Positions 12,546 to 64,000 of a DNA stretch of 64,000 bases are shown one piece after another. The translations under genes and the position numbers were made by a program. Numbering within the stretch: position 1 is the stretch's first letter; the number at the start of each line of letters is the position of its first letter. The stretch comes from Desulfovibrio sp. (lineage in GTDB: Bacteria > Desulfobacterota > Desulfovibrionia > Desulfovibrionales > Desulfovibrionaceae). Below the pieces are notes generated by a model that saw nothing but the letters and a program-made list of their open reading frames with translations, was not told the origin of the DNA and did no database searches. The DNA lies in assembly GCA_016218665.1 (NCBI GenBank), contig JACRDI010000036.1, forward strand, positions 62,001-126,000, read 5' to 3'.

Positions 12546-15317
12546 ATGGCCGCTGGCGGAGGTACGGGGTTGGATCGGGACGGGCTGTTGCGCCACGCGG
12601 GCAGATTTCTGCGGCCAAGGCATCTGCTGCCGGCCGCCGGGGTGCTGCTCACATGCCTCATCCTGGCCATGCTCTGGTCCATGCACGCGTCCTCCGTGGC
12701 CAAGGAACGGGAGACCACCCTGCGGCTCATCGAGGACGTGCGCGGCGCGGCCGACACGGTGGGCTATTTCTTCTACGAGCGCGCCAACGACATGCGCACC
12801 GCGGCGGACAACCGCCAGATCCTGGCCTATTTCGAAAACAAGGCCCTGGGCATGTCCGAGGAGTATGGCCTGCTGGCCAGCCGTCTGGCCATAGGCGAAC
12901 ACCTGGCCAAGATCCTGCGCGACAGGCGCCTGCGCGACGCGCCCATCTACTCCGGCCTGGCCCTGCTGGACACGGCCGGCACGGTCATCGCCGAAAGCGG
13001 GGCCGAGTCCGGTTTCGGCGCGGGCAGCCCCTGGCGCAGCTTCCTCTCCGCCGGCGACCCCGGCCACTCCCTGTTCACCGTGGACTACGCCGCCGCGCCC
13101 CCGGCCGCGGTGCTCCGCCAGCCGGTGGTCCTGGGCGGCCAGTTGGCCGGGCACGTGCTGGCGCGCATCCCCCTGGAGCGGCTGCTGCCGCACCTGTTGC
13201 GCGCGCCCGCGGCCAACGCGCACTTCACCTGCATCACCGACGGCCGCCATCCCGTGGCCAGGCTCGCGGGGCATTACACGCCCTCCCTGGTGAACGAGGT
13301 GCCCGAGCCCAAGGCCGGCGAGCCCTACATCGCCCGCCGCCTGGACGCCGCCAGCAGCGGCGACGAGGGAACCGAGCACTTCGCCGTGTGGGCGCCGGTG
13401 GAGCACACCCCCCTGCGGGTCCTCACCATCGTGGAGGCGGAGGAGCTCCTGGGGCCGTTCACGCCCTGGCTCGTCACGGCCGTGGCCGGGCTGCTGTGCG
13501 CCTTCACCCTGGCCGCGCTGGTGCTGGCCTGGCGCGCCGGCTCGAAGCAGCTGGTGCTCTCCGCCCGGCTGGAGGAGAAGACCCAGGCCGAGGCGGCCAT
13601 ACGACAAAAGGCCAGCGAGCTGGAGCAGCTGCTGGACAGCCTGCCCGGCTACGCCTTCTTCAAGGACGCCCAGGGCCGCTACCTGATGGGCAACGCCAGC
13701 CTGCGCCGCATGGTGGGGCTGACGCCGGAGGAGCTTTGCGGCCGCAACGACCGCGAGCTCTTCCCCCCGGAGCTGGCGGAAAAATACATGGCTGATGACA
13801 CGCGCATTCTCTCCGGCCGGGAGGAACGGCTGGAAACCGAGGACAGCGTGCCCGACGCAGACGGCTTCCGCGACGTGCTGACGCGCAAGGTGGCCGTGCG
13901 CGGCGACGCGGGCCAGGTCATCGGCCTCATCGGCCTGGGGTACGACATCACCGAAAAGAAGCGCGTGGAGCGCGAACTGACCGCGGCCTACGCCGAGATG
14001 GAGCAGCGCGTGGAGCAGCGCACCCGGCAGCTGGCCCGCACCAACGACCTGCTCCTGGCGGAGATAGCCGAGCGCAAGCAGGCCCTGCGCGAGGTGAACC
14101 TGGTGCTCTCGTCCATCTCGGCCATGCTGGTGGGCGTCGATATGGAAGGCCGCGTGCGCAAGTGGAACGAGGCCGCGGCCGGGGTGTTTCAGATGCCGGA
14201 GGAACGCTGCCTGGGGCGCGAGTTCTCCGCCCTGCCCCTGCCCTGGGACTGGGACCGCGTGCTCGCCGCCCTGGGGAGCTGCCGGGCCGAGCGCCGCGCC
14301 GTGAAGCTGAACAACCTGTGGTACGAGCGCGCCGACGGCAAGGACGGCTTCCTCTTCCTCACCGTGAGCCCCATCCTGGACGAGGACGGCGGCTTCGAGG
14401 GCGTGCTCGTCCTCGGCACGGACATCACCGACTTCAAGGTGCTGGAGGCGCAGCTGGCCCAGGCCCAGAAGCTGGAGTCCATCGGCCAGCTGGCCGCGGG
14501 CATCGCGCACGAGATCAACACCCCGACCCAGTACGTGGGCGACACCATGACCTTTCTGCGCGACGCCAACGCCGACCTGCTGCGCGTGCTGGACATGGTG
14601 GCCCCCCTGGCCCGCGCCGCCCGGCCCGGCCAGGCCGATCAGACAGGCCAGGCCGATCAGCCCGTTCAGGCAGATCAGGCAGACCGGCAAGGCCTGCGGG
14701 CCGTGGCCGCCGCCCTGGAGGACATCGAGTACCCCTTCCTGCGCGAGGAGATGCCCCTGTCCTTCACCCGGGCCAAGGGCGGCATAGAGCGCGTCAGCGG
14801 CATCGTGCGGGCCATGCGCAGCTTCTCCCACCCCGGGCAGGGCGAGAAGAAGGGCGTGGACCTGAACGAGGCCCTGGTCAACACCATCACGGTCTCGCGC
14901 AACGAGTGGAAGTACGTGGCCGAGATGGAGACCGACCTGGACCCCGGCCTGCCGCGCGTGGTGTGCCTGCCGGCGGAGATGAACCAGGTGTTCCTGAACA
15001 TCATGGTCAACGCCGCCCACGCCGTGGGGCAGGCCGTGTACGGCACGGACCGGCGCGGGGTCATCCGCGTGCGCACCGCCCAGGAGGAAGGCGGGGTGGT
15101 GGTGTCCATCTCCGACACGGGCACAGGCATACCCGCTGCCGTGCAGGGCAAGATCTTCGACCCCTTCTTCACCACCAAGGAGGTGGGCAAGGGCACGGGC
15201 CAGGGCCTCACCCTGGCCTACGACATCGTGGTCAACCGTCACGGCGGGACCATCACCTTCGAGACGGAGGAAGGCCGCGGCACCACCTTCCACATCCACC
15301 TGCCCCTGGGCTGGTGA
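12546..15317 (+). CDS. Membrane sensor histidine kinase with two PAS domains
   Basis: 923 residues. One membrane helix near 28-47 and another near 316-336 bracket a periplasmic sensor region of about 270 residues. Two PAS domains follow (about 370-480 and 525-640), separated by a coiled coil. The HisKA phosphoacceptor is H655 in AAGIAHEINTPTQYVGD. The ATPase has NQVFLNIMVNAAHAV (N box), DTGTGIP (G1) and FFTTKEVGKGTGQGL (F/G2), all intact. A repeat-derived Gln/Ala/Asp-rich insert (residues about 695-715) sits between the two DHp helices. The gene follows the solute-binding gene by 10 nt and precedes two response-regulator genes by 16 nt, so the likely phosphotransfer partners are those regulators. 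The stimulus is unknown. Confidence 0.92.
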   Translation: MAAGGGTGLDRDGLLRHAGRFLRPRHLLPAAGVLLTCLILAMLWSMHASSVAKERETTLRLIEDVRGAADTVGYFFYERANDMRTAADNRQILAYFENKALGMSEEYGLLASRLAIGEHLAKILRDRRLRDAPIYSGLALLDTAGTVIAESGAESGFGAGSPWRSFLSAGDPGHSLFTVDYAAAPPAAVLRQPVVLGGQLAGHVLARIPLERLLPHLLRAPAANAHFTCITDGRHPVARLAGHYTPSLVNEVPEPKAGEPYIARRLDAASSGDEGTEHFAVWAPVEHTPLRVLTIVEAEELLGPFTPWLVTAVAGLLCAFTLAALVLAWRAGSKQLVLSARLEEKTQAEAAIRQKASELEQLLDSLPGYAFFKDAQGRYLMGNASLRRMVGLTPEELCGRNDRELFPPELAEKYMADDTRILSGREERLETEDSVPDADGFRDVLTRKVAVRGDAGQVIGLIGLGYDITEKKRVERELTAAYAEMEQRVEQRTRQLARTNDLLLAEIAERKQALREVNLVLSSISAMLVGVDMEGRVRKWNEAAAGVFQMPEERCLGREFSALPLPWDWDRVLAALGSCRAERRAVKLNNLWYERADGKDGFLFLTVSPILDEDGGFEGVLVLGTDITDFKVLEAQLAQAQKLESIGQLAAGIAHEINTPTQYVGDTMTFLRDANADLLRVLDMVAPLARAARPGQADQTGQADQPVQADQADRQGLRAVAAALEDIEYPFLREEMPLSFTRAKGGIERVSGIVRAMRSFSHPGQGEKKGVDLNEALVNTITVSRNEWKYVAEMETDLDPGLPRVVCLPAEMNQVFLNIMVNAAHAVGQAVYGTDRRGVIRVRTAQEEGGVVVSISDTGTGIPAAVQGKIFDPFFTTKEVGKGTGQGLTLAYDIVVNRHGGTITFETEEGRGTTFHIHLPLGW
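14628..14690 (+). repeat. 18-bp tandem repeat within the histidine kinase coding sequence
   Basis: GGCCAGGCCGATCAG occurs at 14628-14642 and again at 14646-14660, an 18-bp period. A decayed third copy ends at 14678 and traces of a fourth follow. In frame it encodes GQADQT, GQADQP and VQADQA, a polar insert in the dimerisation domain. Because the unit is a multiple of three, copy-number change would keep the frame. Confidence 0.85.
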
Positions 15318-61623: not shown

Positions 61624-61845
61624 TCAGCTGAAGCCGCCGCCCCCGCACCCGCCGCCCATGGGCGGCATGGCCGGCTCCGAAGCGCCGCCGCCCTCCCCCA
61701 TGCGCACCGCACAGGCGGAGAGCCTGCGCTCCGGAGCATCCGCCCCGCAGACCGGACAGGCCACCCCTGCCTCGTCCTGCGCGTTGCGCACCAGTTCCTC
61801 AAAGCATTTTCCGCACTTGCGGCAAGCGTATTCATAGATGGGCAT
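61624..61845 (-). CDS. FmdB-family zinc-ribbon protein
   Basis: 73 residues from ATG 61845, with GGAGG about 9 nt upstream. MPIYEYACRKCGKCFEELV begins the FmdB/CxxC_CXXC_SSSS family, and the second pair is CPVCG, giving CxxC...CxxC for one zinc. The end is Gly/Met-rich (MPPMGGGCGGGGFS). Family members are linked to regulation or metal handling, but the function is unproven. It converges on the radical SAM gene with 15 nt between the stops. Confidence 0.9.
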   Translation of the reverse strand: MPIYEYACRKCGKCFEELVRNAQDEAGVACPVCGADAPERRLSACAVRMGEGGGASEPAMPPMGGGCGGGGFS

Positions 61846-61939
61846 GGCCGTGGTCCTCCGTTGCCAATGCTGGGGGCATATGTGCGCACGCCGGGCAAAC
61901 CAGTCAAGACCGGCTCCACGCGCCAAGCCCTTGCGCAGG

Positions 61940-61993
61940 CTTGTGCAGCCCCCTCCCCCGGGCACTTGTGCAGAGATGTGCAACAGGTTGCAC
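61940..61993. promoter_or_regulatory. Likely enhancer sites for a sigma-54 activator
   Basis: A perfect palindrome GTGCAAC-AG-GTTGCAC fills 61978-61993, and the 9-mer CTTGTGCAG is repeated at 61940 and 61965. They lie about 80-130 bp before the predicted sigma-54 start site, the usual enhancer distance. Between them and the promoter is an A/T-rich stretch (61995-62036) that could bend. Confidence 0.65.
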
Positions 61994-62046
61994 GCAAAAG
62001 CCTTTAAACAGTATTTTAATACACTGGATTTGTTTGTGAAACACTT

Positions 62047-62062
62047 TGGCACGGCACATGCT
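62047..62062 (+). promoter_or_regulatory. Sigma-54 (RpoN) promoter of the ZraP/Spy-like gene
   Basis: TGGCACG-GCAC-ATGCT matches the -24/-12 consensus TGGCACG-N4-TTGCW with one change, and GG to GC spacing is exactly 10 nt. Perfect 7-nt inverted arms GAAACAC (62038-62044) and GTGTTTC (62067-62073) flank it. Transcription is predicted near 62073. Confidence 0.8.
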
Positions 62063-62141
62063 TCGCGTGTTTCAATCGACACGGCGCGCACCCCCCCTTT
62101 GCGCAAGGCCGCACATGTTTCAAACCTTGGAGGAACAGATC

Positions 62142-62621
62142 ATGAAGAGAAACATCATCGCCCTGGTGGCCGTGGCCGCCCTCGTGGCCCTGTCCGCGGT
62201 GGCCTTCGCCGCTCCGCGCGGGGGCAGGGGGGCCGCCCAGACCGCCATCACCCCGGAGCAGCGCGCCACCATCCAGAAGATCATCGAGTCGCGCCAGGAG
62301 AAGCTCTACGAACTGCGTGAGAAGATCTGGGCCAAGCACGCCGAGCTGCAAGCCCTGTCCAATTCCGGCAAGGGCGAGAAGGCCGACATCCAGAACCTGG
62401 TGGGCGAGATTTCCAAGCTGCGTGACGCCATGCACAAGGAGCGCCTGGCCATCCGCAGCGAGATTGAGAAGCAGACCGGCCTCAAGGGCTTCGGGCCCGA
62501 GGGCTACCACCGCGGCGGCATGGGCTACGGCATGGGCTACAACGAAGACTGCGGCACCGGCGGCGGCATGGGCCGCGGGTTCGGCAGCGGCGCGGGCTGC
62601 CCTGGCGGCGTCTGCAACTAG
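62142..62621 (+). CDS. ZraP/Spy-like periplasmic metal-linked protein
   Basis: GGAGGAACAGATC precedes ATG 62142; 159 residues. The signal peptide (MKRNIIALVAVAALVALSAVAFA) is followed by a helical core typical of ZraP/Spy/CpxP: ITPEQRATIQKIIESRQEKLYELREKIWAKHAELQAL and ISKLRDAMHKERLAIRSEIEKQTGLKGF. The tail is Gly/Met/His/Cys-rich (GYHRGGMGYGMGYNEDCG, later GCPGGVC), fitting metal binding. ZraP is a zinc-binding periplasmic protein under ZraSR and sigma-54 in enterobacteria; the sigma-54 promoter here agrees. I keep the symbol blank because Spy-type homologues look alike. Confidence 0.85.
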   Translation: MKRNIIALVAVAALVALSAVAFAAPRGGRGAAQTAITPEQRATIQKIIESRQEKLYELREKIWAKHAELQALSNSGKGEKADIQNLVGEISKLRDAMHKERLAIRSEIEKQTGLKGFGPEGYHRGGMGYGMGYNEDCGTGGGMGRGFGSGAGCPGGVCN

Positions 62622-62639: not shown

Positions 62640-62678
62640 GGCGGCCCGGCAAGTCCCGTACGGACAGGCCGGGCCGCC
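62640..62678 (+). terminator. Two-tier hairpin terminator after the ZraP/Spy-like gene
   Basis: Arms GGCGGCCCGGC (62640-62650) and GCCGGGCCGCC (62668-62678) pair perfectly over 11 bp. An inner GTCC/GGAC stem caps the structure. Only a short TTT follows. Confidence 0.75.
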
Positions 62679-62730: not shown

Positions 62731-62760
62731 TTGACACCCAGGGCTCATGCGGCCTAGCAG
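62731..62760 (+). promoter_or_regulatory. Candidate promoter of the right-edge sensor kinase gene
   Basis: A perfect TTGACA (62731-62736) with TAGCAG at 18 nt, or CTAGCA at 17 nt. It lies after the terminator and 53 nt before ATG 62813, so the kinase gene can be transcribed separately from the upstream gene. Confidence 0.5.
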
Positions 62761-62812: not shown

Positions 62813-64000
62813 ATGGAACTGCGCACCTTCAAGCGGGACAAGGGCCCGGTGCTGGCGGCCGTGGCCGCGCTGCTGGTCCTTGGCGTGGGCAGCATGTTCC
62901 TCACCTGGCAGAACATCCGCCGCCAAAGGGATCTCGTCGACCAGCACATGCAACTGGCCGGCAACGCAGTGGTGCACGGGGTGGAGGCCAACCTCATGCG
63001 GGTCATGCACTCGCTCAGGCGCTCGCCCGATGCCACGGCCCGCTTCTTTCCCAGCGTGCGCGAGCTGTTCAAGGAAATGACCGCCTCCGGCGAGGTGGTG
63101 TTCCTCGGCGTGTTCGACGAGGACGGCCGGCTGGTTGTGGCTTCCTCCGAGCAGGACGAGAAGAACGAACTGGTCCTGCCGGAGATCATCATCGCCGCCT
63201 TGGAGACCCAGGGCCAATGGTCCGGCCCGCTGGAGTACAACGGCAAGCCGGCCATCTTCTCCGCCATCCGCGCCAGGCCCACCCTCTCGGTGCTGAACGA
63301 GGGCGTGCGCCTGGGCCTGTCCATGCCGCCGGAGCCGCCCCGGCAGGACCAGCCCGGGCCCGGCGAGCAGACGAGCAGACAGACGAGCAGACAGACGGGC
63401 AGACAGGCGGGCAAGCAGGGCCGCGCCAGCGCCCCCGGCGCGGACAAGGCGCCCCAGCCCATGCCCGGCACCCTGCCCGGCAACCCGCCGGAATTCCTGG
63501 ACGACCTGCCGCCGCCGGGCCGCCAGGCACTCGGCCGATCGCCCGAATTTCCGTCCATGTTCATCATGGCCGGGCTGAACCCCCGCCGCCACCTGGACCA
63601 GTTCCAGGCCTACCGCCGCGCGGCCATCCTGCAGGCGGGCTACGTCTTCGGCGCGGCGAGCCTTTTGTGGGTGCTGGCCTTCGCCTACCTGCGCAGGCGT
63701 GACCAGGCCCTCAAGGCCGCCCGGCTGGAGCGCTTCCAGTCCAAGCTGCTGGACAACATGCCCGACGGACTGGTGACCCTCTCGGCCGACGGCTCCATCC
63801 TCGCGGCCAACGGGTCCGCCGCGCGCATCCTGCTGGGAGGCCACGGCACGGAGGCCCACACGGCCAGGGACAACGCCAAGGACAACGCCAAGGACGATGC
63901 CCTGGGCCTCACCGGCCGCAACTGGAGCGAGTTCCCCTTCGCCGGGCTGCTGTCCGGCAAGGAGCCGGCCAAGCCCTACCAGTGGCGGCAGTTCGAACAC
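62813..64000 (+). CDS. Membrane sensor kinase, ZraS-like (3' end beyond window)
   Basis: The frame from ATG 62813 (MELRTFKRDKGPVL) stays open for 396 codons to the edge. A membrane helix near 14-31 precedes a periplasmic sensor (about 45-275, with VFLGVFDEDGRLVVASS). A second helix (about 280-297) leads into a PAS-like start (LLDNMPDGLVTLSADGSILAANGSAARILLG). Kinase domains would follow outside the window, so the kinase call rests on architecture and context. Residues 187-202 are four TSRQ-type repeats. Together with the upstream ZraP/Spy-like gene and its sigma-54 promoter, a ZraS-like role is inferred. Confidence 0.75.
   Translation, partial: MELRTFKRDKGPVLAAVAALLVLGVGSMFLTWQNIRRQRDLVDQHMQLAGNAVVHGVEANLMRVMHSLRRSPDATARFFPSVRELFKEMTASGEVVFLGVFDEDGRLVVASSEQDEKNELVLPEIIIAALETQGQWSGPLEYNGKPAIFSAIRARPTLSVLNEGVRLGLSMPPEPPRQDQPGPGEQTSRQTSRQTGRQAGKQGRASAPGADKAPQPMPGTLPGNPPEFLDDLPPPGRQALGRSPEFPSMFIMAGLNPRRHLDQFQAYRRAAILQAGYVFGAASLLWVLAFAYLRRRDQALKAARLERFQSKLLDNMPDGLVTLSADGSILAANGSAARILLGGHGTEAHTARDNAKDNAKDDALGLTGRNWSEFPFAGLLSGKEPAKPYQWRQFEH
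63371..63418 (+). repeat. 12-bp tandem repeat inside the sensor kinase gene
   Basis: Four 12-bp units: two identical copies of ACGAGCAGACAG (63371-63394), then two variants to 63418. They encode TSRQ, TSRQ, TGRQ and AGKQ in the periplasmic part. A second 12-bp duplication encoding DNAK twice lies at 63869-63892 in the cytoplasmic linker. Confidence 0.85.

Follow-up and report, generated by a model that had tools for sequence, protein, structure and literature searches.

A conserved sigma-54 control region before a ZraP-like gene and its candidate regulon in Desulfovibrio

Genes and control elements of the zraP locus

The window analyzed here is a 64,000-nt stretch of a Desulfovibrio sp. genome (G000:C29:62001-126000; hereafter the own genome), and positions are counted from its first letter. 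Near its end, a forward-strand gene (62142-62621) encodes a ZraP/Spy-like protein of 159 aa with a Metal_resist domain (PF13801, E 3.2e-8, 34.2 bits, above the gathering cut-off of 29.2) and, as judged by eye, a signal-peptide-like N-terminus. The top PDB match of this protein is ZraP (3lay, E 4.5e-9), and the ZraP equivalog model NF008584 gives 30.8 bits against a cut-off of 200. On the reverse strand, a divergent gene at 61624-61845 encodes an FmdB-family zinc-ribbon protein (TIGR02605, 59.2 bits; PF09723, 55.1 bits), and the intergenic region between the two spans 61846-62141. Including the own genome, 43 of 59 genomes contain a ZraP match. Related ZraP proteins with 62-73% identity over the best segment were found in two Humidesulfovibrio MAGs, one Desulfovibrionaceae MAG, and one Proteobacteria MAG, which makes Humidesulfovibrio the probable genus. 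The genus set comprises 15 genomes, 13 of which (own included) were used for counts upstream of zraP; the 2 omitted are G007, whose zraP runs off the end of a contig, and G012, which yielded no ortholog.

Sigma-54 promoters follow the consensus TGGCACG-N4-TTGCW. The element TTGGCACGGCACATGCT on the forward strand at 62046-62062 lies close to it, with GG at 62048-62049 and GC at 62060-62061, and thus has the exact GG-N10-GC spacing. Scored with this consensus and our own weights, it is the sole site reaching at least 0.90 on either strand of the 64-kb window, and an equally high forward-strand score occurred in 3 of 2,000 order-1 Markov sequences modeled on the 296-nt intergenic region. A sequence-only reading of this DNA had placed a near-consensus -24/-12 element 80 nt ahead of the gene, and we count the same 80 nt to the ATG at 62142. 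Promoter geometry predicts a transcription start at 62073 on the forward strand, the position that reading had named. The element is kept in all 13 orthologs, scoring 0.88-0.96. RpoN was not found in the window's own assembly, which is 84% complete; it is present in 12 of the 15 genus genomes, including all 8 that are at least 90% complete.

Upstream of the promoter lies a predicted activator dyad, TGTGCA-N6-TGCACG (61977-61994, forward strand), with one mismatch to the consensus TGTGCA-N6-TGCACA. It contains the 16-mer at 61978-61993 that had been described as a perfect palindrome. The 7-bp arms of GTGCAAC-AG-GTTGCAC do pair, but the central AG is non-complementary, leaving 14 of 16 positions paired. 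The 16-mer, GTGCAACNNGTTGCAC, has a single exact copy in the own genome, at 61978-61993. Inverted repeats with arms of at least 7 and a gap of at most 2 arose in 180 of 2,000 simulated intergenic regions, so that the 16-mer by itself is not very surprising, whereas the 18-bp form TGTGCA-N6-TGCACA with at most 1 mismatch arose in 12 of 2,000. The 16-mer had also been proposed as a site to search for across the genome. This use failed: with up to 2 mismatches, it matched 12 places in the own genome against 29 for a reversed-pattern control, and it was dropped in favor of TGTGCA-N6-TGCACA, which at up to 1 mismatch matched 15 places against 2 for the control, 3 of the 15 being regulon sites. The inner AAC/GTT of the 16-mer differs among species, and judging from the orthologs, the conserved unit is TGTGCA-N6-TGCACA, offset from the 16-mer and looser than it. 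The case shows how a palindrome taken from one sequence can mislead.

The promoter and the dyad (at most 1 mismatch) occur together in 13 of 13 readable genus orthologs, with no dyad mismatch in nine and one in four. The distance from the dyad start to the GG is 69-72 nt in 12 of them and 81 nt in G010. Chance matches for both elements would agree with the frequency of 7-bp-arm repeats in the simulated regions, but they would have to account for conservation and spacing in all 13 orthologs and for control counts of 0 for the exact dyad, 0 in the family scan, and 2 for the dyad combined with the sigma-54 core; we consider this explanation extremely unlikely.

Two further half-sites flank the dyad upstream, as had been noted: both copies of the 9-mer CTTGTGCAG are there, each holding a TGTGCA. 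The distal half-site occupies 61942-61947 on the forward strand; counted from the start of the dyad, 12 of the 13 genus orthologs have TGTGCA or CGTGCA at -35/-36, and G006 instead has -44 and -50. The proximal one (61967-61972, forward strand) precedes the dyad by about one helical turn; its counterpart at -10/-11, again TGTGCA or CGTGCA, is present in all genus orthologs except G010 (12 of 13). The TGTGCA at 61977 is the start of the dyad itself.

The spacer between dyad and promoter is 69% A+T. An A/T-rich bend had been described there, but the best IHF-like match of this spacer was equaled in 117 of 200 shuffles. A comparison of the 13 orthologs revealed no IHF site conserved in the spacer. 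An IHF-like match as good was reached by at most 2 of 200 shuffles in 3 of the 13 (G004, G009, and G002) and by 11 of 200 in G006; with strong matches in few orthologs and not in the window, an IHF site was rejected as a conserved feature of the spacer. The spacer is overlapped by a sigma-70-like promoter directed toward fmdB, TTCACA-N16-TAAAAT (62013-62040, reverse strand), reported by the promoter scan with 10 of 12 matches against a mean of 0.2 in shuffles of the region. The regulator dyad would sit just past the transcription start of this promoter, and its occupancy could repress fmdB, which is at most a possible member of the regulon.

The kinase-regulator pair downstream of zraP

A ZraS-like sensor kinase with HisKA and HATPase_c domains is encoded on the forward strand at about 62813-64867, of which 62813-64000 falls within the window. 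The sequence-only reading had a kinase gene following zraP directly; it is indeed the next gene on the same strand, but a gap of 191 nt lies between them. That reading had also pointed past 64000 for an NtrC/ZraR-type activator, and one is encoded there, at about 64839-66251 on the forward strand, with the three expected domains (Response_reg PF00072, Sigma54_activat PF00158, and HTH_8 PF02954). Its receiver, AAA+ sigma-54 interaction domain, and Fis-type HTH, together with GAFTGA in the translation, are those of the NtrC family. Among the NCBIfam models, the kinase scores highest with ZraS, at 232 against a cut-off of 479. For the regulator, AtoC is the best model (455.7, cut-off 714) and ZraR the fourth (396.9, cut-off 760), each below its cut-off; both score above the GlrR models. 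Matches to the histidine kinase and the response regulator lie downstream of zraP on the same strand at 18 of 21 loci, including all 13 of the genus, and zraP, kinase, regulator, and dyad also stay together in loci of other genera.

The gap between zraP and the kinase gene contains two elements of its own. After the zraP stop, a GC-rich hairpin at 62640-62678 on the forward strand (11-bp outer stem, no T-tract) folds with -37.9 kcal/mol and a z of -4.46. It was not scored as an intrinsic terminator by the terminator scan and is a candidate attenuator or 3'-end stabilizer. A strong hairpin follows zraP in 13 of 13 orthologs, a count made without a shuffle control. Farther downstream, TTGACA-N17-CTAGCA (62731-62759, forward strand) is a candidate promoter of the kinase-regulator pair itself; its -10 element is poor, and it was not reported by the promoter scan. 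TTGACA is conserved, occurring in the gap of 12 of 13 orthologs against 160 of 13,000 shuffled gaps, the 13th gap (G003) being covered in part. A sigma-54 promoter and dyad of the pair's own was rejected, as neither was found in any of the 13 gaps, where lone half-sites appear in 2. Because the conserved hairpin and the TTGACA stand between zraP and the pair, the latter may be transcribed from its own promoter, apart from zraP.

Recurrence of the switch and the proposed mechanism

Of the 15 genus genomes, 13 carry the exact dyad, at 24 places in all; the reversed-pattern control has no match. A scan of the 15 genomes for the dyad core followed by the sigma-54 core, with a spacing range set from sites already seen, gave 47 matches against 2 for the control. 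Merging 5 overlapping matches left 42 distinct sites, which were assigned by tblastn and by the terminator of the small RNA candidate described below. Four target types account for 35 of the 42: zraP with its kinase and regulator genes (13), a second Met-rich/ZraP-like locus (9, one of them, at G009:C56, assigned by a signal-peptide-like protein only), a MacA-like efflux adaptor (7), and an sRNA candidate of about 145 nt (6). The other 7 have nothing related downstream. The own genome has all four types, with a one-mismatch dyad before zraP, before the sRNA candidate (C1:15051), and before consecutive genes for an HlyD-type adaptor, an ABC ATPase, and MacB_PCD/FtsX (C8:66549), and a two-mismatch dyad at the second Met-rich/ZraP-like locus (C12:117318; L074, C12:114500-119500). 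These targets form a coherent set. Less expected than the zraP switch itself is its recurrence, in related genomes, ahead of an efflux pump, of another protective protein, and of an undescribed candidate sRNA.

At L074, a Met-rich protein of 102 aa with a signal-peptide-like start is followed by a Metal_resist paralog with a Met/Gly-rich tail. Ahead of the MacA-like gene, L143 (G002) and L139 (G013) carry an ORF that by eye is possibly a MarR-type regulator. The single exact dyad of the own genome, C29:9279 (L076), has no sigma-54 promoter and adjoins an ORF that looks terminase-like by eye; it was put down to chance, like L077 and L079.

In the wider family, the strict combination of dyad and sigma-54 promoter is present in 48 of 199 genomes, with a control count of 0; the own genome falls outside these 48 because its dyad has a mismatch. 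Among 47 distinct family sites examined (L144-L192), 26 are followed by a ZraP-like match, 4 of them within the genus, and many have the kinase behind it. At L182 and L183 (G029 and G092), the dyad and promoter precede a small protein that by eye looks secreted and EF-hand-like.

The DNA itself shows the sites and how they are conserved, the genes, and the architecture they have in common. From these features we infer binding by this regulator, its phosphorylation, induction, and the kind of stress sensed. Very probably, the control region is genuine and belongs to a familiar type: a sensor-regulator pair acts through a sigma-54 promoter to induce a periplasmic protein with a protective role. 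We consider it highly likely that this region controls a ZraPSR-like envelope-stress system whose neighboring regulator acts on the dyad and has other targets elsewhere in the genome. The downstream sensor kinase would phosphorylate the adjoining NtrC-type regulator, which would bind TGTGCA-N6-TGCACA, aided by the two upstream half-sites, and loop to RNA polymerase-sigma-54 at 62046-62062. Looping would turn on zraP, whose product is a putative periplasmic chaperone or metal-binding protein. The same activator would probably drive the second Met-rich/ZraP-like locus, the MacAB-type efflux operon, and the RNA of about 145 nt. A sigma-70-type promoter of the pair itself probably sustains basal production of kinase and regulator, to which transcripts reading through from zraP may add.

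Adjacency and synteny are the grounds on which the neighboring regulator is assigned to the dyad. The own genome encodes about 24 sigma-54 activators (26 matches, two of them weak), and another one, or two, of these might read the dyad upstream of a genuine -24/-12 promoter. Such sharing would have a parallel in D. vulgaris, where DVU3381 and DVU0621 are both tied to DVU3384 (PMC4641369, PMC3333781) and several activator motifs share TGT/ACA half-sites 9, 11, or 12 bp apart (PMC4641369). We judge it very unlikely here, given that zraP, kinase, regulator, and dyad are together in 13 of 13 genus loci and in other genera, and that 26 of the 47 family sites have the ZraP-like match downstream.

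The link to a stress- or metal-sensing activator proposed in the sequence-only reading holds insofar as an NtrC-type regulator adjoins zraP; metal sensing itself is a conjecture, and the targets are more in keeping with envelope stress. A dedicated Zn or Cu sensor, in place of a general envelope-stress response, would suit the Metal_resist/ZraP family membership, the one His kept in 13 of 13 ZraP orthologs, their Gly/Met/Cys-rich tails, and the Met-rich second locus. It is unlikely in view of the C-terminal Cys motifs of ZraP, which are not conserved across the genus, and of the MacAB-type efflux among the targets. Furthermore, E. coli ZraR has been reinterpreted as an envelope-stress regulator (PMC7657598), and ZraP was the most downregulated gene of D. 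alaskensis G20 at 15 uM copper (PMC8836040).

The gene order of ZraPSR in E. coli and Salmonella differs from that of the locus described here. The two systems share a ZraP-like periplasmic protein (the top PDB match being ZraP 3lay), a membrane kinase, and a sigma-54 regulator, whereas the NCBIfam cut-offs for ZraP, ZraS, and ZraR are not reached here. The direct targets given for E. coli ZraR, zraP, zraSR, and mgtA, also differ from the four types found here (PMC7657598).

Another similar system is found in D. vulgaris, whose DVU3384 we take to be ZraP-like. In published work, DVU3384 is called hypothetical, and DVU3381 is a sigma-54 response regulator with the targets DVU3382-DVU3381 and DVU3384, placed under 'Envelope stress response' (PMC4641369); DVU0621, a second regulator, likewise targets DVU3384 (PMC3333781). 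Gel shifts were used to test the DVU3381 motif, and close relatives retain both the regulator and its sites (PMC3333781, PMC4641369). As here, a sigma-54 response regulator and a kinase lie beside a small target gene, and one D. vulgaris motif class has TGT/ACA half-sites 12 bp apart, as TGTGCA-N6-TGCACA would (PMC4641369). In contrast to the two operons reported there, which include the kinase-regulator genes, four target types are found here, and in front of the kinase and regulator genes there is a TTGACA element in place of a dyad and sigma-54 promoter. By analogy of gene order, from which orthology is drawn, the present system is most likely of the DVU3381 type. Its core is ordinary for Desulfovibrionaceae and resembles the DVU3381 regulon; the sRNA branch is the new part, although it may still prove to be the leader of the next gene. 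In the part of the literature covered on DVU3384, on ZraP/ZraSR in sulfate reducers, on Humidesulfovibrio, and on Desulfovibrio sigma-54 sRNAs, no title or abstract opening describes the sRNA or the four-target set.

A candidate small RNA among the targets

In the own genome, C1:15051-15319 (L193/L200/L234) contains a dyad, a sigma-54 promoter, the sRNA candidate with its terminator, and then a small ORF of the MGGGGG type. From the promoter at 15143, about 150 nt follow that end in AAAAAGGGCCG-CUGCAAC-CGGCCCUUUUU. Six copies were folded and gave z values of -3.1 to -5.3. A covariance model built from these six, themselves found through the sites or the ORF, identified one copy each in 11 of the 15 genus genomes; the four genomes without a copy are 73-87% complete. 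Five of the 11 copies are new finds of the model (G011, G004, G013, G009, and G005). A sigma-54 element (score 0.94-0.96) lies 10-16 nt before the modeled start in 11 of 11 copies, and a dyad matching the regular expression lies at -91 to -93 in 10 of 11, L206 having a weaker dyad. For the five new finds, these counts are 5 of 5 and 4 of 5, respectively. Copy lengths range from 141 to 153 nt with differences that are not multiples of three, which argues against a conserved coding frame. Rfam gave no match at the own locus up to E 1, and across the 11 genus loci it yielded nothing on the RNA at the gathering score and one tRNA beside one locus; a separate scan covering four sRNA loci agreed. 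Outside the genus, weak matches to the model were obtained in 14 genomes (E 7.5e-5 to 0.008); these were set aside, as neither a sigma-54 promoter nor a dyad was found at any of the 7 checked.

In the alignment fitted to the model, which is biased toward its own structure, 88.6% of the cells are paired and a two-sided change is seen in 11 of them, compared with a shuffled mean of 4.0 (reached by 0 of 500 shuffles) and 0-1 in slid controls. Counted by pairs, 5 show a two-sided change, a number reached by 81 of 500 shuffles, and there are 17 further pair types, reached by 73 of 500. An independent MAFFT alignment retains one pair with a two-sided change. Because shuffles reach the pair counts, the fitted alignment leans toward the structure, and MAFFT gives one pair, the 5' helix is only suggested. 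All 11 copies share the terminator and its flanks without a single difference, and an invariant terminator carries no covariation information.

We hold it somewhat probable that the zraP-adjacent regulator commands an undescribed sigma-54-dependent sRNA of about 145 nt, with a 5' hairpin, a C/U-rich linker, and an invariant terminator. In this reading, the ZraP-like proteins and MacAB-type efflux would form the activating side of an envelope-stress response, and the RNA its repressing side. Its predicted 5' hairpin is long, with a C-rich loop, and the predicted single-stranded linker CUCCUCCC could pair with Shine-Dalgarno sequences. The MGGGGG ORF had initially been taken as the direct target of the C1 site; the sRNA reading replaced it, and it was kept as a rival in which the RNA is merely the attenuated 5' leader of the ORF. 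That the two stay together speaks for a leader: ATGGGNGG marks an ORF start 151-182 nt past the terminator in 10 of 11 loci, and a protein match to the ORF was found at the own locus and at 4 of the 6 sites that the scan assigned to the sRNA. At the other two scan sites, the ORF is unmatched, and where matched, it is only 36-57% identical, compared with full identity of the terminator and its flanks in all 11 copies; the minimum-energy folds of the six copies, the only folds considered, also keep the terminator formed. A leader therefore seems rather unlikely, but far from negligible, as the weak statistics of two-sided pairs and the steady ORF behind the RNA weaken the sRNA reading and strengthen this one.

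For the sRNA reading, two described systems offer parallels. In enterobacteria, QseEF (GlrKR) is a sigma-54 response regulator system that responds to an envelope signal and activates the sRNA GlmY (PMC6075780). The combination of sigma-54 regulator, envelope signal, and sRNA target is similar, with the sRNAs likened by description, whereas the regulator here is nearer to the AtoC and ZraR models than to GlrR. D. vulgaris DVU1419 is an envelope-stress sigma-54 regulator with an ncRNA target and the further targets DVU0036 and DVU1418-DVU1419 (PMC4641369), a likeness drawn from description only. Confirmation of the sRNA would give Desulfovibrionaceae a sigma-54 equivalent of the envelope sRNAs of enterobacteria, GlmY being one example. 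The analysis yields a checkable predicted binding site, a small defined target set, and a candidate envelope-stress sRNA in sulfate reducers, and the sRNA candidate and the four-part target set are worth bench work.

In the family genus g50, what follows the dyad and sigma-54 promoter is another conserved stretch (L151, L152, L154-L158, and L176), for which Rfam gave no match in the three of these eight loci that were scanned. Its conservation may reflect the closeness of the species. It contains a strong GC hairpin with no clear gene immediately downstream and is perhaps a second, independently recruited sRNA.
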